A stretch of DNA of 64,000 nucleotides from Hexactinellida sp. DTS-2022 (lineage: Eukaryota > Porifera > Hexactinellida), in assembly GCA_028753945.1 (NCBI GenBank), contig JAPNXP010000016.1:1830001-1894000 (forward strand). Reading direction: 5' to 3'. Of this stretch, positions 7,781 to 55,290 are shown piece by piece. Each line of letters begins with the position of its first letter. Position 1 is the first letter of the stretch. A program made the translations under genes and the position numbers. Below the pieces are notes generated by a model, which saw only the letters and a program-made list of their open reading frames with translations, had not been told where the DNA came from and did not search any database.

Positions 7781-9897
7781 ATGATGAAGGGAGGTAATAA
7801 AAAATACTATTTATTGCTGGCTTGTATATTCGGATTATTGGTGACAATAGGAGGAAATGTGATGTGCTTTGATCCTAACGGTGCACTGAGTTGCTATGAA
7901 TCCTACATGATAGTTTATTGTACGATACAGCAACCAAACACTGATCTGATTGCTCAAAAAATTGCTGCTTGCGGGATTGGAAACTTGAAAATTTTAGATT
8001 TAGAATACGATCCTAGCGGTGCTGGCGCAACGTTAAACTTCAGCATACCTGAAAATATCAACGAATTAACAATCGATAATCCGTTAACAGATCCAGGCTA
8101 CGTTGAAACAGCAACCATTCACAATAGTATTAAAGTAATCTCATTCAATGGTAAATATATTTATATCAATCATGGAGATTTTTTCAGCTACTTTCCAAAA
8201 TTGGAATCATTCAAAGCAGATAAAATTGAAGCGAAAACGATTCCATTTTTCACTGAAAACAAAAATATCAAAACGATAGAGTGAAACAATCAATTATTGA
8301 AGACAATGCTACACGAGTGATCGATGAAACGATAATTGGAGGACTGGACAAACTGACTACATTCAAGTGGGAAAATGGAGGAATAACAAAACTAAGAGAA
8401 AATGCATTTATTGGGACGAACAACCTGCAATCGTTGCTATTAGCAGGTAATAATATTAATCAACTGTATAACTGTGCATTTGGGGGATTAGGAAACCTAA
8501 AAACTCTCTCGCTCGATGGCAATAGGGTGTCTGTGGTGGAACCACATGCATTCATAGAATTGAGCAGTTTAAGGGATTTGTATCTCGACGAAAATTTAGA
8601 TTTCCCTCTATCTACAATCTTTCCATTGAAAAATCTTGAAAATATATATCTCAGTGAATATACTTCAATCGAAATAACGCCAGAAATATTTCAACAATTG
8701 CCTAGCTTAACAAAGATTACCCTGGAACAAATAACGTTTAATTGTTCGTGCGCAGATCAATGGCTTTCTAAGTTGAGTTCGTTTGGTATAACAATAAATA
8801 CAGACCAATCCAGTTGTGTTGGGGGTGGTGCTACGAATGTCGATAATCCCATATTATATTCCTCTTGTCCAAATAAGAGCTACCAATGCTTCAATAAATC
8901 CATAGTCTGTCAAAGTGACAACTGGTATCGAGTAGACACGGACGCAGGCTGTAACTGCACTTACCCGGTGGAACTGTCAACAAATCAATTCATTTGCCCA
9001 GATATCGATGAGTGCAAAAACAGCAGCATTTGTCAGGGAAATTGCACAAATACACTAGGTTCGTATAAATGTGACTGTAATGAAGGATATTACAATCTGA
9101 TTGAATCATTTTGTGACGACATTGATGAATGTGCATCCGCAAACGGAAACTGTACCCACAATTGTACCAACAACATTGGTTCGTACGAGTGCACTTGTAT
9201 CACGGGATACAATAAACAGGGATTCAGTGGCTGTACAGACATTGATGAATGTGCATCCGCAAACGGAAATTGTACCCACAATTGTACCAACAACATCGGT
9301 TCGTACGAGTGCACTTGTGTCACGGGATACAATAAACAGGGATTCAGTGGCTGTACAGACATTGATGAATGTGCATCCGCAAACGGAAACTGTACCCACA
9401 ATTGTACCAACAACATTGGTTCGTATGAGTGCTCTTGTGTCACGGGATACAATAAACAGGGATTCAGTGGTTGTACTTTCATTGAGCAGTGCAAAATCAA
9501 CAACGGTGGCTGTCATCATTACTGCGTTCAGTATGAAATAGGCTATATTTGTTCTTGTTTTGAAGGATATAAGGGATCTCCTTTGAACACAAGCCATTGT
9601 GAGCCCATTGATGATGGAACGATCAGCGAACAAATTTTCAACGTAAAGCAACCTCAATTCTACCTGACATTGATGGTTGCATTGTTGTTTTTATTAACCA
9701 CTATAATTCTAATAATTCTCCTAATTGTTGTTATTATGTATTTTAGGAGACAGTTGAAGTTTGCAAACTCTATTCCAGCTACTACAGTTCTGTCGCTTGC
9801 TCAATTGGACAAGATACGAGCCGACAAATCAACCGTCATAAAGTCTCCTCTCGCAGAACTAGAGGGATTCGAAAAAGCTACTAATCTCGCCCCTTGA
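7781..9897 (+). CDS. LRR and calcium-binding-EGF type I membrane protein, one frameshift
   Basis: The gene reads as a secreted-pathway receptor-like protein. ATG at 7781 starts a lysine-bearing signal peptide (YYLLLACIFGLLVTIGG). A cysteine-rich N-terminal cap and leucine-rich repeats follow (for example NLQSLLLAGNNI, NLKTLSLDGNRV), then an LRR C-terminal cap (NCSCADQWL). After that come about five EGF modules, several starting DIDEC as in calcium-binding EGF, one hydrophobic span (FYLTLMVALLFLL...) and a 50-residue basic cytoplasmic tail. The first frame stops at 8282-8284. The downstream frame opens with no ATG and continues the LRR pattern from 8281, so one base is missing or extra near there. 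That is a sequencing error, a polymorphism or early pseudogenisation; no intron fits. Function and ligand are unknown to me; adhesion or signalling is inference. Confidence 0.75.
9121..9480 (+). repeat. Three tandem 120-bp EGF-coding repeats
   Basis: Three units of exactly 120 bp (9121-9240, 9241-9360, 9361-9480) each encode one 40-residue DIDECASANGNCTHNC-type EGF. They differ at only a few positions, so the duplication is recent or homogenised. All units keep frame. Confidence 0.95.
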
Positions 9898-25600: not shown

Positions 25601-28600
25601 GAGGGGGGGTGTGTCTTGGTGTCGTCACTGCAGGGCGTGTTGAATGAGGAGCAGGAGCTGGCAGCCGCGGGGGAGGCGACAGGGGACAGGTAGCGGTCCT
25701 CTTCTGAGGGCTGCGAGGGAGAGAGGAGGGGCGAGTGGGGACTGAGCTCTGCCTCTGTCAGATCTACGACCTCGCAGTCCGCTGCAGCCCCCATTCCCTC
25801 ACAGCAGCCCGCAGGAGAGAACTCTTGCTTAATGCGAATAATCTCACCCCTGGACAGCGCCGGCGTGACGTCATAGAAGCCTAGCGAGTCTAGACTGTAG
25901 ACAGGACGGGCGAGTTTGCTGCGGGCCCGCGTGACTGGAGCGGAGAAGAGAGTCCGCATCTTCTCCGGCTCCAGACACACGGCTGTGTCCGTCACTCGAC
26001 TCAGCTGAGAGGAGTCTCGCGCTGAGGAAACACACTCGCTGTTAAAGCTGTCATACACTATGCAGTCAGCTGTCACGGTCTCTTCTCGCAGGGCTATCTC
26101 AGTGGTGGCCTCAGGGGGCGGGGGGCTGGAGTCAGAAGAGTACTCCGACTCACTGATGTAGACCTTGCTCTTGATCCTGCGGCGCTGTCTGCCCCGCCCG
26201 ACCACCCGCTTGACAGGCCCCATCCCCATCTCCACGTCGCTCTCCCCCTCCGAGACGCTGGCCCTGCCCTCCCGCGGCTCCGCTGTCTCCCCCGCAGACA
26301 GCGCCCCGGCCAGCTCTTGCTGGTCCTCGGAGAGCGCCAGCAGGTTGCACACCTTCTTGGTTCTCATCTGGGAGAACTCCCTGCCCGCGGGCTGTCTGGA
26401 CCGGCTGGTCTCTCTCAGGTACTCGGAGAGGATCTTGGAGGAGGAGGGGGACTTGGCCAGCTGTCTGCTGCCCCTGGGCGGGAGCTTGGGCAGCTCTATG
26501 ACGCGCCTCTCGGTGCTGAGGCCGGTGTGCACTGGCTTGCTCTGCCTGTCTCTCTCTAGGCTGCGGAGACACTGAGTCTTCGACTTACGAATCATATTCC
26601 TCCTCTTGCGTCTGTTTCTGGCTGGAGCTGTATGAGGGGTGGCAGTGCTATTTATAGGTGCGGAGACCTTTCTGGCTGGGCTAAGAGCAGCCGGCATTCT
26701 CTGTCTCTCTGCAGCAGCGCTCACCGGCTGTCTACTCCTAGTGGCGAGCTTTGGGGACATTCCAATGTTCGGGTTATGTTGCGAGGGCAAAGAGGGGAGT
26801 AGAGCCGGTCTAGCGGGCGGCAAATGGAACAGGGCAGTCTCCACAGGACTGATTGTGTCGGGAGCTGTGGTGAGACGGGGACTGCGTCTGGGGGTGGACA
26901 GCTGTTTGCCAGACGAAGCGATGGGTATCAGCTGTTTGTCAGGCGAAGTTATGGGTATCAGCTGTTTGTCAGGCGACACAGTGGGAGACAAATGTTTGTT
27001 TTGTGAGACAGTAGAAGACAAAACTTTGTCAGACGAGGCAATGGGTATCAGTTGTTTGTCAGACGAAGCAATGGGTATCAGCTGTTTGTCAGGCGAAGTT
27101 ATGGGTATCAGCTGTTTGTCAGGAATAGCAATGGGTATCAGTTGTTTAGCATGTGACACAGTAGAAGACAAAACTTTATCAGGCGAAGTTATAGGTATCA
27201 GCTGTTTGTCAGAAGAGGCAATGGGAATCAGCTGTTCTGTTGGCGAGTCACTGGGTATCAGCTGTTCGTCAGGCGAGGGAATTGGCATCAGCTTTTTGTC
27301 AGGAGAGGCAATGGGTATCAGCTGTTTGTCAGACGAGGCAATTGGTATCAGCTTTTCGTCAGGTGAGGCAATGGGTATCAGCTTTTCGTCAGGCGAGGCA
27401 ATGTGTATCAGCTTTTCGTCAGGTGAGGCAATGGGTATCAGCATTTCGTCAGGTGAGGCAATGGGTATCAGCTTTTCGTCAGGTGAGGCAATGGGTATCA
27501 GCATTTCGTCAGGTGAGGCAATGGGTATCAGCATTTCGTCAGGTGAGGCAATGGGTATCAGCTTTTCGTCAGGTGAGGCAATGGGTATCAGCATTTCGTC
27601 AGGTGAGGCAATGGGTATCAGCATTTCGTCAGGTGAGGCAATGGGTATCAGCTTTTCGTCAGGTGAGGCAATGGGTATCAGCATTTCGTCAGGTGAGGCA
27701 ATGGGTATCAGCATTTCGTCAGGTGAGGCAATGGGTATCAGCTTTTCGTCAGGTGAGGCAATGGGTATCAGCATTTCGTCAGGTGAGGCAATGGGTATCA
27801 GCTGTTTGTTCGGTGTGCTGACTATATCGGCTTGGACGCGAGAGGCCAGTTTAGCTCTGGAGCGAGTGGTGGGTGCGTGTATCGCCTCGGGAGTGTCTGA
27901 GTCTGTGGACAGAGACACTGCCTCCACTGCCCCGGCGCTTATGACGGACAGCTGACTGCTGTCAGGGTAACACGGGGAAAATGCTTGCACAGGCTCTTTA
28001 GAGAGTAAATCTATTTCTGTCGGTTCTGACATTGAAACGATCAACTGAGGCTCGCCAGTTAGCTCATTAGGCAACAAACTAGTGTCCATTAGCGCCGAAC
28101 TATCGCCCGTATCTGTAGGGCTCATAACGCTATCAGAAGTGTCAACCGCTTGTAGTGATTCGCTATTTTCTAACGGATAACTTCCTTCCTGAGGCTGTAC
28201 TGCATCCAGTTGTGTGTCGTTGCAGAGAATCTCAAAAGAATCCTGTGCTACAGAGCTAGCGTGAGGAGAGCATGCACTCTCTGGCAGCATTCCAATCGCC
28301 TCTGCTGTTGCTATGAGGTCATTAGACTGGCCCCGCGGGGGAGAGGTCAGATCGGAGTTTGCGTTCTCGGAAGTTGTCCGGGACCTGGAGTGGCGGCGCG
28401 TGACCTTGGGCGGGTCCGGCGTGTTCTCCTGCAGCGGCGGTATGGATATGTTCAGCTGCCGGGCGATGCTGCGCGTGACGCGGCTGGAGCAGCTGGGCGC
28501 TGAGGGGTCCGCGGAGGGGGAGAGCGGGGAGAGACTCGGGGGCCTGTAGAGCCGCCGCTGCAGCCTGGGGCTGAGGGGCGGCGTGTGCAGGGGAGAGGAG

Positions 28601-37560: not shown

Positions 37561-38129
37561 CTATTCAGAATAGTCATGATTGCATCTGAATAAATTAAAA
37601 TATTACTATTTGGTCACAGGCTAGTTTAGATATTTTACTAAAAGAACGAAGCATTCAGTTCCTCAATAGTTAATTTAGTTTTAAGGATAATTTGAGATTT
37701 CAAATTCCATTCTTAAACGCTTATATTTAGAAGAAATGAATCGTATGTAGGGTAGTATTAATAAATATAAAGTATGAAACACTAAACATCTTTTTGAGCA
37801 GTTTGGAAAATATATTGTTGGGAACTTGCAATATGCAGTTAATTGACATTAATATATCAGGATTACAAATTTCTAACTATATAGAGTGGTGTATATTACC
37901 TAGAAGTGTAAAAGCATAGCAACATTACTTCTTTTCTCTCACAAACCTAATTTCCTTATCGGAGGGTATTATTGCAATATTTCCAAAAATACTACTTATT
38001 GACAGTGATTGTATACACACCATAAATCACAGTCAGGACTGCTTGTCCAAATCTACTCAACTTTTCAGTAAATTCACAGATCTACTCAAGTTTAGAAAGG
38101 CTATATTTAGTCTATCTTACATATATTAA

Positions 38130-38470
38130 ATCACAATGTTTTTGTGTTTGTTTGTTTGTGTGTTTGTTCAGAATTGATTGAGGAACTGGTAAAAGCTACA
38201 GACCTAAAATTTGGCAGTGGGGTGGGAAATACTAGTATTGTATGTACAAACAAGTTCAATATCTAAAAAGATATTCAAATCTTCCATCACAAAAGGTGTC
38301 AAAACCTTTAGCCAATTAAATTCGAGGGTTGTTCCAGTATGGATTAGCAGCTTGCATTTCAATTAGTATAATCGAATGCTTTAGTGTCTGTCAAATGTTA
38401 AGTGTGCATTATGGAATACTGAGAAAGTAATCTAATTGATCGAGAGGAAGTTCAGGCATTTAATCAGTTA
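38130..38470. repeat. TTTG-microsatellite-linked dispersed repeat
   Basis: A TGTTTG run is followed by CAGAATTGATTGAGGAACTGG. Further on, TTAAATTCGAGGGTTGTTCC and ATTAAGTGTGCATTAT-like text match 13085-13215. The inverse of the first part occurs at about 42640-42725. Confidence 0.6.
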
Positions 38471-39150: not shown

Positions 39151-40964
39151 TTTCCCTTATCCAACTTGGACAACATAGACGTGTTATAAGCTCATAATAT
39201 GGGAACAGTTCATTGTCAATATTTTGGTACAAAATTTGGGGGCTCAACCGCTCCATTGGCCACAGAGCTAACAATGTTTCTATGGCAGCGTTAACTGATG
39301 CTAAAACTTTACCACAAGTAAAGTAACAGATTAACTCAAGTATTTGGGATGAATTCGTAAGTTAATGTAGGATCATATTAATCAGGCAACTCTACTTTTC
39401 TAGGTTGTTCCTTATTCGTGCATTTATATCATCAATTTTTTGACTACTTAATTGCACAGAGTTGCATCTTAACAAATAAATTTAACCTACAAAATTTGTG
39501 AAGATGTCTAACATATGTAGTAATATTCAAATTTCAAACACTTAGATATTTATTCAATAAAACAATTATGTAGTACCTAAAATGCATCACTTAGTTCAAT
39601 TAAAGTTCAAATTGTGTAAGGGTGTGGTTGATGACATGCATTCAAGGTGTGGACTAAATTATTAAATTGTATAAGCTAAATTTATTCAAAAGATTTACTA
39701 CAAAGTGACAATTATTTATCTATGTAATTTAGACTACATTAAAACATACTGAGCCAGCCACTAAGTAGTTTGTAAAGTAGTCTGTTAAGTAGTTTGGCAC
39801 AATATCAAATATAAGAAGATACTCTATTTCAGCAGTAATTCATTCAAAAGTGCAATTACACTATTTGTAAAGTACAAAAATTGAATAATATTAATTTAAT
39901 TTAGTAGCGGGTCCAGAAATGATCGGTTGGGAGGAGATGACTACACAGTTGGGAGTCTGGGGTCGCTGCGCTATAAGCCCCCAGTGGGGTTAGGGCCTTA
40001 AGGGACGCTAAACAACATTTAGTTATGACTTATGGTAATTACTTAACTTGCTATTATTGTGTAATATGCTTCATACTCCAATATTTTTAACTATCCACCT
40101 AGACCGACCCCTTTGTTAATAACTTAGATGAATAGACTACATACGTAAATCAAAAATTTATTAAGTTAAAATTACTGGTTACTAGTCGTATAATTTACAA
40201 AGGAGCTATGACCTCAGAAATATGTTTGGTTAATAATAGTATCATACTTGCCAACCGTGCCCTGTCCCGCCAATCAATTATCTTATAAAATAGAAATGTT
40301 TATACGTATTAACGCACACTAGAACAGGGACGTTGCCAGGATTTTTCTTCTATGGGGAGCAAACATTCTATTGATGTTAGATCTAGCAGTTGACATTACC
40401 AAAAACTAGGCTATGAATATGAACCTTTCTAGTTAAATGTTCTCAAAAGTATGAAAAGTAGCCTAAAAAAATCAATACATTAACATGAAATTTGCAACCC
40501 CAGCAAATATTACAGGAAAAATCTACTAGCTATAATGACAGTTAAAAGTCAATTTTGACAGGGTAAAAGGTCTAAAGTAAAGGTGTATTGTAAAACAGTT
40601 GATTAGAAGTTAGAACCAAATTTCCAAAATAACTAAGAATATCCTATAAGGCGCAACTAGTAACAGTCCATCCCTGTCAAGTACAAGGATTTCAACCATT
40701 TTGGTTGTTCTGTCCAGGGATATAATAATTTTGATATGAATTACTAGTTTGGAAAAATTATTGATTGTCTGTCGAATAATGTCTAAAAATTCCTAAACCC
40801 TAAAATGTAGCAGTTTGTTTTGTTTAAATTAACACCTATTCAAGCGTACAGTGATTCTCTGTACAGTATTTTTTTTTTTGTCAAACTTAATAAGAATAAA
40901 TAACTTGACCGTATATCTTATGTAATGTTTTGGTTAGTGTAATTCGTTTCAGTATAGATGTGAC

Positions 40965-41265
40965 GTTGCGGTGTGTGATCCGTGAGAGCAATAAGGTCAG
41001 TCACTCCCAGGAGGACTAGGCGCTGCTGGAGCTGTGTAGACAGCGAGAGTGAGCAGCCTAGGTGTGTCGCGACGATGGAAGAAGTACAATCTGGACGAGG
41101 TCGGACACAGCGATCGCAGTGAGCGTGCCGAGGGTAGAGGACTGGACCGTCCTCCTGATGAGGCCTCTGGAGGGTCGAAACCCTAGAGTGGTGGCGACAC
41201 CACTTGGACCACTTGAGCTGTCAATGGTGGCAGCTTGGTACAGTTAGGTCCCAAAGCTTTTCCTG
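40965..41265 (+). other. GC-rich island, SINE- or retrozyme-like unit carrying the ribozyme
   Basis: About 300 bases of clearly GC-richer sequence stand out in AT-rich surroundings; boundaries are approximate. The island contains the hammerhead at 41131-41184. GGGTCGAAACCCT at 41173-41184 also resembles an RNA polymerase III B box (GGTTCGANNCC, one mismatch), so the unit could be transcribed like a SINE. The short open frame from 41062 has no known domain, and I do not regard it as coding. Confidence 0.5.
41131..41184 (+). ncRNA. Type III hammerhead self-cleaving ribozyme
   Basis: All core elements are present in order. Stem III is AGGG (41131-41134) paired with CCCU (41181-41184). The cleavage triplet is GUA, with the cut after A41136. 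Stem I GAGGAC/GUCCUC (41137-41142, 41149-41154) is a perfect 6-bp stem with loop UGGACC. The core CUGAUGA is at 41155-41161. Stem II starts with the required G-C pair (41162 with 41176), has five pairs including two G-U, and a 5-base loop. GAAA is at 41177-41180, and A41180 pairs U41135. The order (open at stem III) makes it type III. Hammerheads of animals are known from Penelope-like elements, SINE-like repeats and retrozymes. Cleavage itself is inferred. Confidence 0.88.
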
Positions 41266-42306
41266 ACATAAGTGTAGATTTACATCTTAGACGAGCGAGC
41301 GAGAAAATATTCGGGGTGTCCAGGGATCGTGGTAAATCAATGTACAGGGGAAATTGGAGCTAATGCGATAATAACTTGCTGTTTTGTGTATAACTATTTT
41401 TTTAATGTTGAGTTATCAAAAAAGTTTTTTGTTAACTTTGAATTAAGGAGAATAATTTATCTGATACTTTACCAAGCTGTCAAGATCAATACTTATACTT
41501 TAAGAAAACTCTATTAATGATTCAGTGAGTCAAATGAATGCACATAATAAGCTATTGAATCAAAATAAATGCGCCCGAATTTTTTTCTTAGAACCCTGCT
41601 TTGGCCTCATTAAAAATAATTCAAATAATAAGTTCGCTGAATATATAAAATGGTTCAAACGTTAATTAAGTAACACTTCCGAGGGGAAAGGGGTCAACCA
41701 ATGTGCGACAGTCAATCCATTTTATATTACAAACAGATCAAAGAGCGTGACATTAGAGGGGGAGGTGTCTAGTTTTCCTGGAATTTGCGTTGGTGACATT
41801 TGACCGGCACATAACGTATGAAACAGCTTAGAACTTAGTTTGTCTTTTTTAGATTATGTCACTTGTCAGTACAGGCGCAGCACATCCTTTTTATATTGGA
41901 ACGACAGAAGATTAAAGTGGTACAGCGACTATTTTATCACCATTGTTCTCGAGCTCGTATCCATCATACACCTTCCAAAAAGTGATTGCTTTAATCTGTA
42001 TTTTTTTAGCAGCAATAGTTTTTTTAATTGAGTATTATGTGATAAATCCCCCAATATTTCGTGATTTATTATAAAAGTTGTACAGAGAGAGATGCCATAC
42101 CACTCCAAACGTGGTACTGTGCCCGCAGTCCTGCTGCATCGATATAGTCACAATCTGTCACTTTATTAATATAAGTTCATGACACAACTAATATACTTGC
42201 ACTCTAAATCCTAATTGCCTAGAGGTGCAAGGTTGTAAATTATATTTTAAATTATGTTGGGTACTTTTTTATCTTGAGCTGCTCATCTCGGTGATCTAAC
42301 TATATA

Positions 42307-42461: not shown

Positions 42462-43325
42462 TATCACAATTTAGATTATTTGCTCTACAGTCATTGTACA
42501 ACGTTCAAAAACTATCGAAACAACTTTTAATTTATTCAATAACAAGCACGCCTCGGATGCTTGAGCTGCGCAGCTCGGACACTTCGTATCCGCAGACAAC
42601 AACAAACATCTAATATTTTGCTTTGATATCTAAATTTGTTTCTAGATACGCCATTTCTGCCCCCATGCCAAATTTCAAGTCTCTAGGTATAATTACCAGT
42701 TCCTCAATCAATTCGAACAAACAAAGAAAAACCCATTGAGTTTTAATATATGTATAATATAATAAGAATTTTAAACTCATTGAAAATTTTAATGAGTAAC
42801 AGTATTAATTGCAATACGAACTTACGAAGTACGTAATATATTGCATGAGAATCCTCATACAAGTTGATCAAATTGTTTAGTATTACGTTGCAATTATTAA
42901 CAACATAGAACCTAATTAAGGATAGGTATAAATAACAAGTTTTCCTATTCTGAAACATTACTCAAAATCTACTATAATTTTCATAACAACTTCAAGAAAA
43001 TCATTAACAAATCATCGCAAAAACTGGTAAACTTATTATCACAATTTACTTACATTCAATATCTAAATACTACTTATATTAATAATTTATAAGGAAATTC
43101 ATTTGTTAATTGTTATTTAAATGGCTTATTCGCATTACTATATTAAATATACGAGCCCTTCGGTATAGGTCGCTTTGCGACGGATCGGTGCTATGCTACG
43201 CACCTCAAGTTAACGGCAGCTTTACAGCCTTGCTCTTCACCCTTTCTGCCATGAAAAATGGTATAAAGGGACGTTATATACATCCCTTTATAAGTTTTCC
43301 ATAGTGTTAACTTGTTTTTCATATT

Positions 43326-46795: not shown

Positions 46796-47403
46796 GCAAG
46801 CCCCGTGAGAAAATTACCCCCTCATGAATTTCCGCATTGTCATTGCAATAATGTAAAGACTACTTGAACAAAACAATGATGTAGTGACAATTAGATATGG
46901 AACCACAACGGGTCCGCGAATTGTGGAACGAGCCACGGTACCGTAGATGATCCGACCGCACCAACCGTAGGGGGACCAAATATGGCATGACAATTAACAG
47001 TAACAATTTGTGCAATTTGTAATTTTCACCTCAACTATCTTTGATTGTCATGTTTGCACAAAATTTAAATAAAATATAAATACAGTTGACATCCGTTATC
47101 TCGAATGCAATTTTCATTTCCCCTCGTGTAATCAATTGGGTTTGTAAATAAAACTGTTCGCTATCCCGAATGCAATGTATCTCGAATTTTCGCACTCTAT
47201 TTTTATTCCTCCTGAAATAATTACAGCAGTTTATATCCGACTAATCTGAGTCGTCATTGATACAAAAAATATTTCGTAAATCAGATGATTACAAATAATG
47301 AAAGGGGCTCGTTTATACTGTACACAAACAAATTAGAATTAGATTTATCATTTATTTTTAAAATGATTAGCAAAGGTTTAAAGAGAAAGATAAAGAATTA
47401 TTG

Positions 47404-50400
47404 ATGACAAAAAATGAAAAAAGTTTCCCGGATCTAGACCGGGCTAATGGAAATGAGCCTGATCATTATTTTTCAACATACTATCAGGAGTCCCTTCGTT
47501 ACGGTGACAGTATCTACTTAGTTGGAGAGGTAGGGAACAAATCAATCCAAGTCGTTAATTCCCACATAAGCAGTCCATTCCACCAGATTGTTAAACTAGA
47601 CGATTTCTCATACGGAGAAAATGCTAATCCTCTACCCGATTTGCATATATCTGCGTTCCGCGTATTGTACCCAAATGAGTACATTGCTGAAAAAGCCCTA
47701 ATATCGCATAAAGATGAAATTGAAAACTCAAAAATTGGAGATGAAAAACTCACAAAATTAAAAAAAGATGCAAAAGATGAAGCTAAAAATAACACAAGGA
47801 TCTATATAAAGTATCTAGGAGTGAAAATAAAATATGGAAAAGTAATCCAACTACAACATTACTATTCAGGGAAATATCTCGGAGTAAGTGATAGCGAAAC
47901 TAGCATTGTTGATAGAACTCTTCTCAAAGTTTCTTTATTCGATACTAACGGAGAGCATGTCCAGTTCAAAATATCACCAAAATACAAAGTACGCGCAATT
48001 GGTGACAAAGTTCGCATTGAGGATCAAATTATGCTCGAAAATGAGAAATGTCAACAGTATCTTCACTATAGCGAAATTAAAAAAAGCGACTCATTCTTTG
48101 AAGGCAAAGAGATCAATGCTTCTGCTGAAGATTCCATATTCACAATTTACTCCCATATCAGATTGAACAATGAAAACGATGATGTAAACAACATACGAGG
48201 TGGTTCAGTCATCAGACTCTACCATCTTGAGGTGCAATGCTACGTGGTAGCACCGGGTCCGGGATGGGATCAAGGAAAAGAGGTGATAACAGATGAGGTA
48301 CACCTGCGAGCGAGGAAAACAATGCTAGGAAATCTGAAAGCACCATCAACTTCCGCAATTACCTATTGGCAAGTGGAAAATACTAAATCTCCAATTTCCG
48401 GAGATGTATTGAAGTATGGTGAACCCTGTCGTATCAAACACATGTTGACTCAAAGGTATCTTTCTGTAGAAGCAATCGATGACGAGTGCCAAATGAAGCT
48501 CATTAATCTGGCTGATGACGTTTTAGGTGAAAGGACACAATTCCATTTCACTCCTTTCATTGATAAGGGCAGGGAAAAATCGAAAGATGAGTTGATCAAG
48601 TTCGAAAAATCCGCAGGACTTTATCACCCAGCAACTAAAACATGGGTTAAGGGGACCAAAGAAAAATTTCAAGGAAAATTCCCAGATGCGGAGCAATTGG
48701 TGACGATGGGAATTAAATGGGATGATGCCAGCTGTTATCAAATAAACCTGGAACTTTCAAAGGGATTTCATGACGCGTATAAACTGGAAAAGGTTGATGA
48801 ACAACTCCTGGATTATTTTCACTATGCCATGGGATACATACCCGTAATCAAAAACTACCTAGTCACATATGATCGTCCAAAGACAACAAGAGAAATTGAA
48901 CAATCTCTCAACTCATTAGCAAACTGGATGAAAAACGCGCACAAAAAAGACAGGAAAAATCGTCAGAAACTTCTGCGAAACCTTGGAATTATAGAACTTC
49001 TTATGGAAATACAGAAAAGATTCGTAAGAAAAAGTGGTTCGCAAAGTGAAACAATAGATTATAAAATACGTGAAGACATAGCAATCAATACATATGCCGT
49101 TATTGAAGCATATGTAAAGGGAAATAGTCGAAAAAATGAAAATTACACAGCAAAATACATTTATAATTTCAAAAAGCAATTTGGGCTGAAGATAAATGCT
49201 GAGCAAACGCTTATTGAACTCATTCGTGATAACAATAATATCATAGAGGGATTAAGCCAAGGTTTTCATAAACATACTGAGAAGTCATTTAACGAATTAG
49301 CAAAGTACAAAAACCCTCAAATCTTCAATTATTTCGTTGTTATGTGTGTCACAAATAAGAGTCAATTCCAAAAGAACCAATTAACTCTTGCAAAACGACT
49401 TACGGAGAGTTCTGCACAAGATTTTATGTTTTTCATGAAACTGGACAAATCTGGTGAAGAAAATTATATCATTGCCACTTCACCATTAACAGATGGAAAA
49501 CACTATAAACCTCTTTCAGAATATGTTCCTATCGATCAAACAATTAAATTAACACCAGCTATTGAATATCTCATGGGCCAATTGGATTTCCTTTCTAACC
49601 TGTTCAAGGGGAACAACGAAGATGCTATAAATATGTTAAGCACAAAATTTCCATTCGAGGTTGTATTTTCGGGTTTGAAAGATGAGAACATCCACCCTAC
49701 GATAAGGAGCAAGTTTGCACAGCTCCTTTCTACAATGTACATTGATGTGGGATCTAATAGGCCAATCCTCGAAAATCTTACACTAACATTCACTTTTGAC
49801 GAATATGATGAATTTACTCAGGATAATGATGAAACATCAAAAATAGTCGCTTTAACTGGAGAACGAAATGATCACTTTGAGGAAATAAAATGTTGGTTGG
49901 AAGATTTTTTCAAGAATGTACAAATTAATTGTCATGAAGATTTCATCCACAACAACCAATTCACTGTATCAGTCCTTGATGTACTAATATTGTTTGTAAA
50001 GTTTGGGTATTATAAAAACCCAGATGACATAAATAATATCCTGAGCCCATTATTAGATATACTTGATGGGCTTCAAGACAAATTCTCATCGAAAGAGGCC
50101 ATTCTAGAGGGAGACCAAACGTCTAATGACATTTTTACTGAAGAACAAAGATATGAGAAAAACAGAGGGAACGCTCCTATATTCAACATGAAGAAAAAAT
50201 GTTTACGTGTTTTCGAGTTATTCATGAACCTCCGAAAGCATAAACGGTTACAGCTGATGCTATTCTATTATCGAGAATTTATAAAACAGTTAGAAGATAC
50301 GAGTAATAGAAGAACAACAATTATAGAAGATGACTACATTCTTGCCCAACACTTAAATGATCTTCACAGCGAAAAAGAGCTCAACAAAACCTTGATGCAG

Positions 50401-53400
50401 AAATTGAAGGAACATTTAGAAAAAAGAATAATCGAAACTACAGCATATGAATATGAGAAAAACAAAGGAACTGACTCATTTCAATCTATTTTATTAGATC
50501 TCACACTATATAAAGATCGTGAACTGTCTGTAAATGCTCTCCGCTTATTGAATATCAAATATAGTACTGAAAATGACCTCTTCATGAAAGCTATCCAAGC
50601 TCAAGCACTTATTAATCCATCATCGGTTGAATTGTTCAAAGGTTTTGAAAACAAACTTCCTAGATTCCGTCGATTCCTCAAATCTTCATTCACTAATGCA
50701 AATAACCGTGTCGAATTAATTGGAATATTGAAAGAATGTATAAGGGCTTGCAGACTCCCCGATTATCCAACAAGACCACATCGACAAAACCAGAAGATAC
50801 TCTTCAACTTTGGACTTTTTGAGGATGTTTTGAACATATTGGAGAAATTTCAAGAAGAGTGCGGTACTGTAGCAACCAGTACTGTAGGAAAGGATGACAT
50901 CAGAGAACTAGCGGCAGTGTCTTGCACCTTACTCCAACATTTAGCCAAGGATAACCTACAGATACAGAAGAGATTGTACAACCGCCTTGAGATATTAGCT
51001 TCGGAATACCTATTTAAACTAGCTCCAGTAGAGCTTGGAAATCTCATTACACAAATATTTACCGGTGCAGAGGTAATTGTGATGAAAATAAAACCAGAAG
51101 AAATTAAATTAATTTGTATAAAAATGAAGCGATTAGAAAAGCTTATATCACAGAATATAGTTCCAATCATTGAAATCCTGAAGGCAGCCGCAAAAGTCGA
51201 GGAAATCGACCTTCCGGTTCATTCGAATCAAGTACAAATTATGAAATGCTTCATGCAGAATAAACCCAACGAGATCGACTTGTTCTTAGGTGCTAGTTAT
51301 CATAAAATTGATCTGAGAAATAGATTACTTACATCAAATGATCTTAATGAGGAAGAGTTAATACAATTGGAAGTAATGCTCTCTACTTTCGATTTGATGG
51401 CCTCCCTTTGTGAAGGAGAGAATCAACACCATGAATCTGTGTGCCAGTCCATGATATCAGCCGGGGAACTTTTGAATATCCTTAATAATACAGATATACC
51501 ATATTCACGAAAGTTTCAATTTGCTTCATTCTTCAACTGGGCGTATTTGAATACCCACAAAAAGCCATCATTGTATGATATTAGTATCCAAAATCAACCG
51601 CAATTTTGGCTCTTTATAATGAAATCCAATGCCTTATTAGAAGAATTCATTACACTTGTAACAGTTCTTTCGAATCAAAACCGCTATAATTTCAGACAAG
51701 TAAATATCAATGAAGGTGAAGTTCCACTGAAGCCGAAATTACAATTCACCACGCCCCATGAAGATATCTATTCATTTGAATCGATATGTGATTATCTTTT
51801 GAAGGGTATACTTCCAATAATCATTGTATTCTACACACGTTACTTTTCAATTGATACAGAAGATGATGTCGAGCGTAAAAAAAGAAATATCAACACAACA
51901 ATGAATATTTGCAATAACCTCATCGATCTGGCAATAATGTTTCAACCATTTATCGAAACGAAACACCAAGCTAGACTTTTATACACAGCACCATTATCAA
52001 TTCTAACTAATGATGCTATCAAGAATGTTCTCTCAAAACAAAGTAGTATCGAGGATGAAAAACTCCTTGAATTCAAAATGTTGGTGGATAATGAAGCGAC
52101 TTTCGTTCCTCAGTCATTAGTGGATTACAATCGAAAGTACAAAGGAGAAATTTGGTTGAATGATCAATTCAACAATTACGCAAAACATATGCGAAGAGCT
52201 TACTGGGGGGAAAATACTGCTAAAGTTCAAATTGAAGCTCCAAGCAAAGAAAAATATTGCATATTTCTCGATGAAGCGGGCAATTATCCCGCTCTTGATT
52301 CGATGCCCCTCGGTCGAAAATTCCAGGATCATTTGAAATTGTTCTGTGAACACACAACAAAAAATGGTTGTATTGTGGCTAATGAATTGTTCATGAGTAT
52401 CGTCAAACAACTTGAATACTCCTATGAAAACTACTATGAAATGGATGAAAGAGAAAAGATTAAACAAGAAAGCCTTGACATAAAATCATTACAATTATTG
52501 CGTGGAGCGATTCTTAACGAAATTGGCAACATTGATCAAGAGTTGAAAACCAAAAACCTAGAAGAGTACGAAACGCAATGGAAAAAGGTAGAGGAAATTC
52601 AGAAAGAAATCGAAAATCTCTATAACACAACTTACATATTGTTAATATTGACCAGTCATCCTTGTAAGCCTGTTTCATTCCAGAGTATTGCATTACTCAT
52701 CGACATGCTTTGCGGAGGAAATAGAACTATACAAGAAAAGTTTCGGTGGCTTGCAGATTCGAGTGAGGCAAAGTGTTTGGGAAGAATGAGGGCTATTTTG
52801 TACAATGGGGGGAATATCATAAAAGAAAATCGGAACCTGAAAAGTGAAGTAGTCAAGAGAAGATGTCATTTTGACCAAATGAAGAAATATTTAGATGACA
52901 AAATGAAGGGACATTTCGATAAAAGCACACATGATCGCACGAAAACCACGGATGTTATTGTGGGAAAAGATCAAATTATTTGTAATGAATGGGTTCCGCT
53001 AAAGTCATTGCAAATAAATGAAACTGGCGAAGAGAAAGAGTCTTCAACCAGCACGGAAGAACTACGATCTAAGGAAAACAAATTGGTGGAGGAAAAACTG
53101 TTAATGGAGAAAATATCAAAGATGGATAGATTGAGAGAGGTTGAAGTTGCATTTAAGCTATTGGGGCTTATGTGTGATAAACGTTACAAGTTCATGCAAA
53201 ATTGTCTACGTAAACAAGACCACGGTGGAGAAAGTATCAGCATTATCGATAAAGCAGTCGATTTCTTGAAGGATGTCCATATCGAAATTACCAAATATAA
53301 CATCGATTTGGTTACGGAGGTTTTTAATACCATGATTGAGTTAATTGATGGGAACTATTTGAATAAAAAGGAAGCATTCAATGCTGGAATAATCGACGTT

Positions 53401-55290
53401 GTTAAGCATATCTTCCGAAACCCAATTAATGAATGTGGTGTTAGTCTTAAGCAAGAAGTAGATTTGTACAAGTCAATGATTTGGTTCCTTCAAGTTTTCA
53501 TGGAAGAAACCAGCATGGGAACAAAGGATCTAGCAAAAGATTTGTACAACTTAATCGATATTCATAGTATACACAGAGTGCTAGTGCGTCTTTATGAAAT
53601 AGGATTTAATAACGAATATAAGGATCAGGAAATTCAAACAACTGCTGAAAAATACATGTTTTGCCTCTATCATTTTATTCTACACTCAAAAGATTTTGCT
53701 ACAGTTTCGAAATCAAATAAAAATCGTTTAGCAAAAGCACCAGATGTGGAAAGAAACCCCGAAGCCAATAAGGCCTGGCTCTATTGTGAAAAGAAAACAC
53801 GCTCTGTCGAAATTGTATATGAAACTGACGAAAAAGAACCAATTCTTAATAAGATTCGGTTTAAATGCAGCAATTTAGTGTCTAACGACGTAGTAGAAGC
53901 TGTGAAATGGGGAATCAATCGACAATCACCCGAGGACAAACTCAGAGATTTCCTAGAATGGTTCAAGGCTGTTAAAGTGACAGAAAATTACTCTAAAAAA
54001 TTGAGCGACAATAAGTTTACAGAAGTATACATCAAATGTCAGCCTTTAAGAAAAGGGCTATTCATATTTTGGACTTTCATTGTTAATCTATTTCTATTAG
54101 CAACATGGTACACACCCTGTGGCAGTGTTAGCACAACCGAAGTTAATGACATCGTAACTTATGACTGCGATGAACAAACTCCAAACTCAACCTTAACTCT
54201 TCCCCTTTACCCTATTGTCCCATTTTGGTACAATTACGTTTTCTACCCAATTGGAGCCATTCACCTCATTATGGCACTCGATCTTCTGATTCTATTCTTC
54301 ATCGTTAATGGGAAAAACTTTTACATCCCGGATATATTCTATCGCATAAAATCCATTAGTTATCATACGACTTTGAAATATAAGTTCAAATGGGAAGATC
54401 CAAAGGGTGAACAATACTTAAAGATTAACATTATTGGATCCAAGGTTGCATTTATGTGCATTATTTTCCTCTCTTCATTACTTTCACTGCCCTTACGTGG
54501 ATATCTTTATCCTATCTGTTTATTGTACGTGTTGGAATTGAGTGATATACTTCGACGTGTATTACTAGCTGTCACTAAAAATGGGAAATCGCTCATTTTC
54601 GTAGCCTTTTTCGGTTGCATCATTTTATACATCTTCAGTGTTATTGGATTCGCACTTTTCTCCATACAGGCACAATCAACGATAAACCCAGATAGCGATG
54701 CGTACCTTTTCTGCCATACTCTCTATGAATGCTTTGTCACGTTTAGTCGTTGGGGTCTCCTTGATACAATAGCCCAATTCATTCCACAGAGGTCAATGAG
54801 TTTCACTGGTGAATTGGACCGCATTATATACGACCTACTCTTCTTCATTGTTGTGAATACAATTTTGTTGAATATTGTTTTCGGTATCATTGTGGACACA
54901 TTCTCTCAGCTAAGAGATGAGAAGAGTGAACAAGAAAAAGATATGAAAAATTATTGTTTCATTTGTGGTTTGCAAAACTTTGTCTTCGACCGCAAGGGCA
55001 CTGGATTCCGGGAACATGTGAATAATGAGCATAACATGTGGGATTATTATAGCTTTTTCTTGTATCTAGATAGCATCGATCCATGTGACCACACTGCTAT
55101 TGAGGGATTTGTGTTCGAGAAACTTAAATATGGCGAGACTATCTTCTTCCCTCAGGATGTAGCGGGATGCATCGCTAATGAGAACGAGAAACAAGATGAT
55201 CAAGTCCAGATAATCCTCAAGGAATTACAGGACCAAATCGTGAAACTGAAGAGCGTCAACAACCTGAAGTCTCCTCAGAAGATAAAATAA
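47404..55290 (+). CDS. IP3-receptor-like intracellular calcium channel, intronless, atypical pore
   Basis: An uninterrupted 2628-residue frame from ATG 47404 to TAA 55290 has the length of IP3 receptors. In order I see an N-terminal trefoil/MIR region (for example GEPCRIKHMLTQRYLSVE near residue 340), a long helical RIH-type solenoid, an RIH-associated segment (FQSIALLIDMLCGGNRTIQEKF), and five or six membrane spans between about 2218 and 2500. The C-terminal zinc-finger-like CFICG (Cys2518, Cys2521) is followed by HVNNEHNMW and a final coiled coil, both hallmarks of IP3 receptors. The pore loop reads SRWGLLDT (from residue 2448) where IP3 and ryanodine receptors have GGGVGD or GGGIGD. It should form an ER cation channel, but ion selectivity and IP3 binding are open. 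The lack of introns over 7.9 kb is unusual for the family. AATAAA lies near 55574. Confidence 0.88.
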   Translation: MTKNEKSFPDLDRANGNEPDHYFSTYYQESLRYGDSIYLVGEVGNKSIQVVNSHISSPFHQIVKLDDFSYGENANPLPDLHISAFRVLYPNEYIAEKALISHKDEIENSKIGDEKLTKLKKDAKDEAKNNTRIYIKYLGVKIKYGKVIQLQHYYSGKYLGVSDSETSIVDRTLLKVSLFDTNGEHVQFKISPKYKVRAIGDKVRIEDQIMLENEKCQQYLHYSEIKKSDSFFEGKEINASAEDSIFTIYSHIRLNNENDDVNNIRGGSVIRLYHLEVQCYVVAPGPGWDQGKEVITDEVHLRARKTMLGNLKAPSTSAITYWQVENTKSPISGDVLKYGEPCRIKHMLTQRYLSVEAIDDECQMKLINLADDVLGERTQFHFTPFIDKGREKSKDELIKFEKSAGLYHPATKTWVKGTKEKFQGKFPDAEQLVTMGIKWDDASCYQINLELSKGFHDAYKLEKVDEQLLDYFHYAMGYIPVIKNYLVTYDRPKTTREIEQSLNSLANWMKNAHKKDRKNRQKLLRNLGIIELLMEIQKRFVRKSGSQSETIDYKIREDIAINTYAVIEAYVKGNSRKNENYTAKYIYNFKKQFGLKINAEQTLIELIRDNNNIIEGLSQGFHKHTEKSFNELAKYKNPQIFNYFVVMCVTNKSQFQKNQLTLAKRLTESSAQDFMFFMKLDKSGEENYIIATSPLTDGKHYKPLSEYVPIDQTIKLTPAIEYLMGQLDFLSNLFKGNNEDAINMLSTKFPFEVVFSGLKDENIHPTIRSKFAQLLSTMYIDVGSNRPILENLTLTFTFDEYDEFTQDNDETSKIVALTGERNDHFEEIKCWLEDFFKNVQINCHEDFIHNNQFTVSVLDVLILFVKFGYYKNPDDINNILSPLLDILDGLQDKFSSKEAILEGDQTSNDIFTEEQRYEKNRGNAPIFNMKKKCLRVFELFMNLRKHKRLQLMLFYYREFIKQLEDTSNRRTTIIEDDYILAQHLNDLHSEKELNKTLMQKLKEHLEKRIIETTAYEYEKNKGTDSFQSILLDLTLYKDRELSVNALRLLNIKYSTENDLFMKAIQAQALINPSSVELFKGFENKLPRFRRFLKSSFTNANNRVELIGILKECIRACRLPDYPTRPHRQNQKILFNFGLFEDVLNILEKFQEECGTVATSTVGKDDIRELAAVSCTLLQHLAKDNLQIQKRLYNRLEILASEYLFKLAPVELGNLITQIFTGAEVIVMKIKPEEIKLICIKMKRLEKLISQNIVPIIEILKAAAKVEEIDLPVHSNQVQIMKCFMQNKPNEIDLFLGASYHKIDLRNRLLTSNDLNEEELIQLEVMLSTFDLMASLCEGENQHHESVCQSMISAGELLNILNNTDIPYSRKFQFASFFNWAYLNTHKKPSLYDISIQNQPQFWLFIMKSNALLEEFITLVTVLSNQNRYNFRQVNINEGEVPLKPKLQFTTPHEDIYSFESICDYLLKGILPIIIVFYTRYFSIDTEDDVERKKRNINTTMNICNNLIDLAIMFQPFIETKHQARLLYTAPLSILTNDAIKNVLSKQSSIEDEKLLEFKMLVDNEATFVPQSLVDYNRKYKGEIWLNDQFNNYAKHMRRAYWGENTAKVQIEAPSKEKYCIFLDEAGNYPALDSMPLGRKFQDHLKLFCEHTTKNGCIVANELFMSIVKQLEYSYENYYEMDEREKIKQESLDIKSLQLLRGAILNEIGNIDQELKTKNLEEYETQWKKVEEIQKEIENLYNTTYILLILTSHPCKPVSFQSIALLIDMLCGGNRTIQEKFRWLADSSEAKCLGRMRAILYNGGNIIKENRNLKSEVVKRRCHFDQMKKYLDDKMKGHFDKSTHDRTKTTDVIVGKDQIICNEWVPLKSLQINETGEEKESSTSTEELRSKENKLVEEKLLMEKISKMDRLREVEVAFKLLGLMCDKRYKFMQNCLRKQDHGGESISIIDKAVDFLKDVHIEITKYNIDLVTEVFNTMIELIDGNYLNKKEAFNAGIIDVVKHIFRNPINECGVSLKQEVDLYKSMIWFLQVFMEETSMGTKDLAKDLYNLIDIHSIHRVLVRLYEIGFNNEYKDQEIQTTAEKYMFCLYHFILHSKDFATVSKSNKNRLAKAPDVERNPEANKAWLYCEKKTRSVEIVYETDEKEPILNKIRFKCSNLVSNDVVEAVKWGINRQSPEDKLRDFLEWFKAVKVTENYSKKLSDNKFTEVYIKCQPLRKGLFIFWTFIVNLFLLATWYTPCGSVSTTEVNDIVTYDCDEQTPNSTLTLPLYPIVPFWYNYVFYPIGAIHLIMALDLLILFFIVNGKNFYIPDIFYRIKSISYHTTLKYKFKWEDPKGEQYLKINIIGSKVAFMCIIFLSSLLSLPLRGYLYPICLLYVLELSDILRRVLLAVTKNGKSLIFVAFFGCIILYIFSVIGFALFSIQAQSTINPDSDAYLFCHTLYECFVTFSRWGLLDTIAQFIPQRSMSFTGELDRIIYDLLFFIVVNTILLNIVFGIIVDTFSQLRDEKSEQEKDMKNYCFICGLQNFVFDRKGTGFREHVNNEHNMWDYYSFFLYLDSIDPCDHTAIEGFVFEKLKYGETIFFPQDVAGCIANENEKQDDQVQIILKELQDQIVKLKSVNNLKSPQKIK

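Follow-up and report, generated by a model that had tools for sequence, protein, structure and literature searches.

Hammerhead ribozymes associated with repeats have been described as splitting along host kingdoms. Two publications of 2020 (PMC7229834, PMC7761336) place those of animals mostly in non-LTR repeats with type I topology, and those of plants in LTR elements with type III topology. An earlier study (PMC3088659, 2011) found most repeat-associated eukaryotic hammerheads to be of type I and considered that propagation may require this type. In its available text, a review of December 2024 (PMC11722881) still describes animal retrozymes as non-LTR elements with type I hammerheads, and gives dicots as the only hosts in which complete LTR elements have been identified. 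The pertinent part of PMC4918200 (2016) likewise reports that neither a primer-binding site (PBS) nor a purine tract (PPT) was found in the hammerhead repeats of animals, with the exception of a tRNA in schistosome repeats. Type III hammerheads linked to animals are known as discontinuous motifs in the mammalian Clec2 genes (PMC6155905, a 2017 review) and from HDV-like RNAs of toads and termites (PMC7761336). A limited literature search over titles and abstract openings returned no description of an animal LTR retrozyme.

Here we analyze a type III hammerhead in a stretch of 64,000 nucleotides of genomic DNA (hereinafter the window), together with its relatives in the same genome, which comprises 112 Mb in 18 contigs. 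The element that carries the hammerhead is very probably an LTR retrozyme, a non-coding LTR retrotransposon with the ribozyme in its LTR; one solo LTR of it is present in the window. The first-pass annotation of the window had taken type III topology to be apparently less usual for animal repeats, and the type I hammerheads that PMC7229834 and PMC11722881 describe for animals bear this out.

The most similar elements are the plant LTR retrozymes, which, as far as they are described in the available text of PMC4918200, share with those reported here hammerheads of type III in both LTRs, the lack of coding capacity, a PBS and PPT, 4-bp target duplications, solo LTRs, multimers, a G+C content above 50% and gypsy-type elements as the likely helpers. 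By analogy, the present elements would work as the plant ones do, and they differ in their tRNA, their size and their host, which is an animal, probably a sponge; the PBS corresponds to tRNA-Gly instead of the tRNA-Met reported in PMC4918200; and the locus L038 has an internal region of 73 nt, with 238-527 nt between successive ribozymes across loci, as against the 600-1000 nt given there. Inverted-pair copies are a further difference. An animal, and not a dicot, as host lies outside the reported range of LTR retrozymes, which is a feature of range and not of mechanism. With the non-LTR type I retrozymes of animals (PMC7229834) the elements share an animal host, non-coding units some hundreds of bases long and a small circular RNA, which is here only expected by analogy. 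What sets them apart is the type III topology and the presence of LTRs, a PBS, a PPT and 4-bp duplications, features that the available text of that paper does not report. Penelope-like elements and Terminons (PMC7229834, PMC7761336) are also retroelements with hammerheads in their terminal repeats; as described in those sources, these are minimal type I motifs in elements encoding reverse transcriptase, whereas those found here are of type III, canonical in size and borne by non-coding elements.

The present genome thus breaks the split between plant LTR/type III and animal non-LTR/type I retrozymes and thereby uncouples ribozyme topology from host kingdom. Terminal-repeat retrotransposons in miniature (TRIM) have two short LTRs, a PBS, a PPT and a tiny non-coding internal region, all of which are shared by the elements under study, and are distinguished from them by the conserved ribozyme, predicted to be of a self-cleaving type, within the LTRs found here. 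TRIM elements are also named in the available text of PMC4918200.

The hammerhead motif and its relatives in the genome

The motif lies on the plus strand at positions 41131..41184 of the window and displays all core bases and three stems, in the order AGGGT-A^GAGGAC-TGGACC-GTCCTC-CTGATGA-stem II-GAAA-CCCT. Direct reading pairs AGGGT with ACCCT as stem III (41131-41135 with 41180-41184), ends the GTA cleavage triplet at 41136 and pairs GAGGAC with GTCCTC as stem I (41137-41142 with 41149-41154), which is indeed the perfect 6-bp helix noted earlier. The rest of the motif consists of the CTGATGA core (41155..41161), stem II (41162-41176), whose second pair is a G.U in the window copy, and the GAAA core (41177..41180); both core blocks are invariant in 14 independent members of the window family. 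Cleavage is predicted after base 41136 (GTA^G), a placement made by homology to the hammerhead fold. As loops close stems I and II and stem III is open, the topology is of type III, in agreement with the first-pass annotation, which had also recognized the core as intact.

The minimum-free-energy fold of the motif is exactly the hammerhead structure, although shuffling does not weaken the folding energy (z 0.11; 106 of 200 shuffles reach it). The Rfam Hammerhead_3 model (RF00008) matches 41129-41186 over its full length with 32.8 bits (E 2.3e-5 for 401 bases) at a permissive threshold, below the gathering score of 48.5 bits, and a search of the whole 64-kb window at gathering cut-offs returned no Rfam match. 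The proposed covariance-model check hence succeeded in finding the motif and failed in the score, and a score below threshold, which had been named as refuting the ribozyme, was obtained both for the window copy and for L038 of the same family. This score and the unremarkable fold energy are what could be said for a chance hammerhead-like fold within an unrelated repeat, a reading whose probability we regard as negligible. Against it stand the genome-wide counts and stem covariation set out next, and a peak of conservation in the LTR that coincides exactly with the hammerhead (see below); on these three grounds it was rejected.

A pattern made of the core and stem II occurs at 372 places in the genome (186 + 186), as opposed to none for the reversed pattern. 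The Rfam type III model scored above its cut-off at 64 of the 68 places scored, a lower bound given 12,319 candidates at first look; to judge from the coordinates, none of the 68 coincides with a listed copy of the window's own family, so that the passing places all represent other families. When six whole loci were searched with Rfam, four had matches over the cut-off, six in total and all of type III (two each in L050 and L077, one each in L068 and L071), and L038, of the window family, and L045 had none. The type I model RF00163 gave no matches in the genome, and none in its 14 controls either.

Parsing of the fetched loci yielded 46 distinct hammerhead motifs of type III, with U-H at the cleavage site in 42 and a stem III of at least 4 pairs in 40. 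In an alignment of 44 of these (L054 and L079, neither of which forms stem III, being left out), 97.1% of the cells are paired and 10 of the 16 pairs show two-sided changes, values reached by none of 500 shuffles; when the partner position is shifted by one base, 51-56% of the cells remain paired. This alignment was not fitted to the structure: the 3' ends of L047 and L056 were corrected by hand, and gaps exclude 21 sequences at three stem I pairs and one stem II pair. Taken with the pattern counts, such covariation vindicates the earlier statement that chance assembly is very unlikely.

A separate type III hammerhead on the plus strand of L045 (1475-1533) combines the loop pattern of the window family with different, compensated stems (stem II GACT/AGTC) and has flanks that by eye are unlike the LTR of that family. 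A second core similar to it lies at C1:12202213.

LTR ends, target duplications and conservation

The hammerhead of the window is embedded in a plus-strand unit of 310 bp (40959..41268) with TG...CA ends, at which the homology with its closest copies starts and stops. The unit has a G+C content of 57.1% as against 32.0% in the nearby flank. A genome search recovered at least 14 copies at 91-93% identity and one at 90%, which share a common larger block, and at least 28 further matches at 76-94%, some of them pieces of a single copy (40 scored of 77 candidates). Twenty aligned copies have the common ends TGTSAYRNAG ... AGCTTCATGACA, so that the termini are TG...CA and form a short, imperfect inverted repeat.

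With the ends set by this motif alone, a blind test found exact 4-bp duplications at 5 of 11 solo LTRs, a count reached once in 20,000 flank shuffles. The other six, including the window copy with its flanks TATAGA / TAAGTG, have no exact duplication. Twelve loci had entered the test; the one filtered out, L037, has matching AAAG/AAAG flanks and would bring the count to 6/12. Outside the test were L017, L024 and L030, which are near-copies of counted blocks, L033, which has lost its 3' end, and the two-LTR copies L036 and L038. For the other families the duplications were picked by eye and not blindly: 7 of 14 non-inverted loci have them (L042, L049, L050, L058, L065, L066 and L068), and they are absent or unclear in L039, L046, L047, L048, L052, L056 and L067. 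Motif-set ends were used in place of a mechanical scan for TG...CA ends, a duplication and an inverted-repeat score, which was dropped (11/54 loci against 8, 5 and 8 for mixed halves).

Insertion is further documented by empty sites. When the flanks of a copy on contig C17 were joined with one ACAG and searched against the genome, paralogous places were found that cross the junction uninterrupted. In all four that were fetched, TTGGACAG runs on into TTATAAAG or something very close to it; ACAG is present once and the LTR is missing. The 310-bp unit was therefore inserted precisely and four bases were duplicated.

Two side observations concern the surroundings of these copies. The LTR is part of a block, at least about 3 kb in size, that is present once on each of six contigs (L017-L020, L022 and L023 on C16, C14, C10, C9, C18 and C1) with 99.6-100% identity over long stretches, and that looks as if it had spread very recently. 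In the window itself, imperfect inverted repeats at 38107-38222 and 42660-42765, about 4.5 kb apart, have the solo LTR between them and are perhaps the ends of a DNA transposon that received it.

In the window family, 14 independent insertions were compared: no other 54-nt stretch of the LTR is as well conserved as the hammerhead, whose mean pairwise identity is 95.8% versus 69.9% for the rest, and 13 core positions are invariant. The remaining six of the 20 aligned rows (L017, L024, L030, both LTRs of L036 and one of L038) were kept out of this count as near-copies or second LTRs. Three of the six are damaged: L024 is without the cleavage-site T, L030 has lost part of stem II, and one L036 LTR reads TTGATGA. 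Freely varying core bases, which had been put forward as refuting the ribozyme, are thus not what the 14 copies display, damage being present in three of the six left-out rows.

These data also bear on whether the hammerhead of the LTR could be a relic or serve a regulatory role, for instance in the formation of transcript ends, with the element moving in a linear, TRIM-like manner in which circular RNA plays no part. The damaged cores in L024, L030, one L036 LTR and L081 are compatible with such a reading, and we consider it unlikely, though far from negligible, in view of the invariant core in 14 independent insertions, of the hammerhead being by far the best-conserved part of the LTR and of the compensatory changes across families.

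Complete copies, families and the non-LTR alternative

The LTR retrozyme reading draws its further support from copies that retain two LTRs. The clearest is L038 on contig C6, which is organized as CTAT - LTR of 302 - internal region of 73 nt - LTR of 302 - CTAT, with LTRs 99% alike over 300 nt and an internal region that is present at three places in the genome. Type III hammerheads lie inside each of the two LTRs in L038, L059, L068 and L050; one of the two in L068 passes Rfam, and L050 is composed of two LTRs and no internal region, thus forming a direct tandem of LTR-sized units. In L036 the core is damaged in one of the two LTR hammerheads, and L071 lacks the 5' part of its 5' LTR. Besides L038, a target duplication is present at the two-LTR copy L068, and 3 of 4 bases match at L036. 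The search for further copies and for paired or tandem ribozymes suggested in the first-pass annotation was accordingly productive, with copies, the two hammerheads of L038 and the direct tandem of L050.

Directly behind its first LTR, L038 reads TT-TGGTGCATTGGCCGCGAA, a PBS complementary to the 3' end plus CCA of the genome's own tRNA-Gly(GCC) gene. The complementarity extends to 17/18 positions in L038, 18/18 in L070 and 16 positions in L036. A genome search with the 18-base complement, allowing up to 2 mismatches, gave 13 places, as opposed to none for the reversed control. Ten of these (eight loci) stand 1-2 bases behind the LTR-type end ACA, and at seven of them a hammerhead core lies no more than 150 nt upstream, among them L071, in which the part 5' of the core is missing; the three that have no intact core are the minus-strand places of L073 and L075, and L081, which has GAAC for GAAA. 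The last three of the 13 are unrelated, namely two Helitron copies (L079, L080) and one gene region (L082). The former, both on C1, are long copies 97-99% alike with tandem arrays of about 140 bp, and look like a Helitron by replicase-helicase-like frames judged by eye. The PBS is missing from the window because its copy is a solo LTR, which has none. By eye, purine-rich tracts directly precede the 3' LTR in three families, with GTAGGGAAGAGTGA in L038, AACAAGGGGGGTGA in L068, AAAGGGAAGGTGA in L059 and TTAAGGAAGAAGGAG in L071.

Type III hammerheads are found in no fewer than three LTR families: the window family, marked by the stem I GAGGAC/GTCCTC, a second whose LTR ends are of the TGTTATAG...CATAACA kind, and a third with the ends TGTAGTATCGGGGCC...TTACTACA. 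The tRNA-Gly site is found in two of them, the window family and the third, and no PBS was recognized in the second. Successive ribozymes in the same direction are 238, 344, 375, 385, 486 and 527 nt apart, and the ribozyme-to-ribozyme units measured have a G+C content of 51-60%. The 375-nt unit of L038 has a strong fold (z -3.18; 0 of 100 shuffles).

Such short non-coding units invite comparison with the hammerhead repeats of corals, mussels and salamanders, on the model of which the present elements would be animal-type non-LTR retrozymes or SINE-like repeats moved by LINE or Penelope-like enzymes. The range of 238-527 nt is near the approximately 170-400 nt given for animal retrozymes in the available text of PMC7229834, L050 is a direct tandem of LTR-sized units, and the TGTTATAG family has no recognized PBS. 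The hammerheads are nonetheless type III and not type I, the TG...CA ends come with 4-bp duplications, a PBS and PPT are found where the pertinent part of PMC4918200 reports neither for animal hammerhead repeats, and the G+C content of the measured units also speaks against this model. The characters of non-LTR retrozymes (type I, neither PBS nor PPT, duplications longer than 4 bp) were not encountered here, and relatives of the window copy combine a hammerhead per LTR, a PBS, a purine tract and a 4-bp duplication, the window copy itself being a solo LTR that has no such duplication. The PBS, PPT, 4-bp duplications and empty sites largely refute the non-LTR model, which we hold to be very improbable. 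A SINE with a tRNA head was rejected separately, as by eye the 5' part of the repeat has no tRNA-like head. Hence, where the first-pass annotation had offered an undescribed animal retrozyme or SINE family, the retrozyme is upheld by the PBS, PPT and 4-bp duplications and the SINE falls away; nor is the repeat an animal-type tandem one, the TG...CA ends, 4-bp duplications, PBS and PPT of the elements marking it as a solo LTR of an LTR retrozyme.

Proposed cycle of the LTR retrozymes and the inverted pairs

Since a complete copy consists of LTR, short internal region and LTR, there are two hammerheads in its read-through transcript. By analogy with plant retrozymes, such a transcript would cut itself twice and the released unit would be closed into an RNA circle, which would retain one PBS and one purine tract. 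tRNA-Gly would then prime reverse transcription of the circle by enzymes supplied by another LTR retrotransposon, probably of the Ty3/gypsy type, and integration of the cDNA would generate the 4-bp target duplication. Solo LTRs may arise either by recombination between LTRs or from a circle copied about once. A profile search for Gypsy-type integrase domains scored 150 of 885 candidates, and all 150 lie above the cut-off, many in long open frames; as at least this number is available in the genome, helpers are at hand. None of the 13 places at which the genome matches the 18-base PBS, up to two mismatches being allowed, belongs to an autonomous partner with a tRNA-Gly PBS.

We would entertain, as a possibility rather than as the expected outcome, the more far-reaching proposal that a sponge harbors several active LTR retrozyme families, which replicate in the form of small, viroid-like RNA circles and return to the genome via tRNA-Gly-primed reverse transcription. 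If this is true, LTR/type III retrozymes either predate the plant-animal split or arose twice. The compactness of the elements, with a unit under 400 nt, a tRNA-Gly primer and a 73-nt internal region, makes them a test system for the question of whether a self-cut circular RNA can serve as the template of LTR retrotransposition, and they bear on the origin of viroid-like RNAs that carry type III hammerheads.

Hammerhead elements also occur, whole or in part, as inverted pairs (L026, L041, L044, L055, L059, L070 and L077), in which an LTR and a center are followed by an LTR in the opposite direction. In L070 (C1:10353900-10354850) the whole inverted structure lies inside one 4-bp duplication, CAGG, and to judge from this arrangement it looks as if it had been inserted as one unit. 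The simple retrozyme cycle does not account for these copies. Were the proposal of active sponge retrozymes true, the recurrent pairs would reflect strand-switching by reverse transcriptase on circular or double-polarity RNA.

Host genome and other features of the window

A genome search returned two matches to the zf-C4 domain of nuclear receptors (3 candidates scored). Nuclear receptors are not known outside animals, and therefore the host is an animal; the EGF_CA/LRR and IP3-receptor genes of the window, described below, were also counted among the evidence for an animal and not a dicot. Two nuclear receptors with DNA-binding domains is the number found in demosponges, and the host is probably a sponge. 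A Wnt model gave no matches in the genome, and none in its controls either.

Within the window, a minus-strand frame of 1,250 codons, for which no Pfam match was found, contains a 30-bp tandem repeat of about 26-29 copies at 26933-27809. Domain matches identify an EGF_CA/LRR membrane protein with three nearly identical 120-bp EGF_CA-coding units (9118-9476), and the window also encodes an NHL protein and an AAA ATPase whose PEX6 domain match lies just under the cut-off. A relative of the IP3 receptor occupies 47371-55290 on the plus strand as one uninterrupted frame of 2,639 codons.
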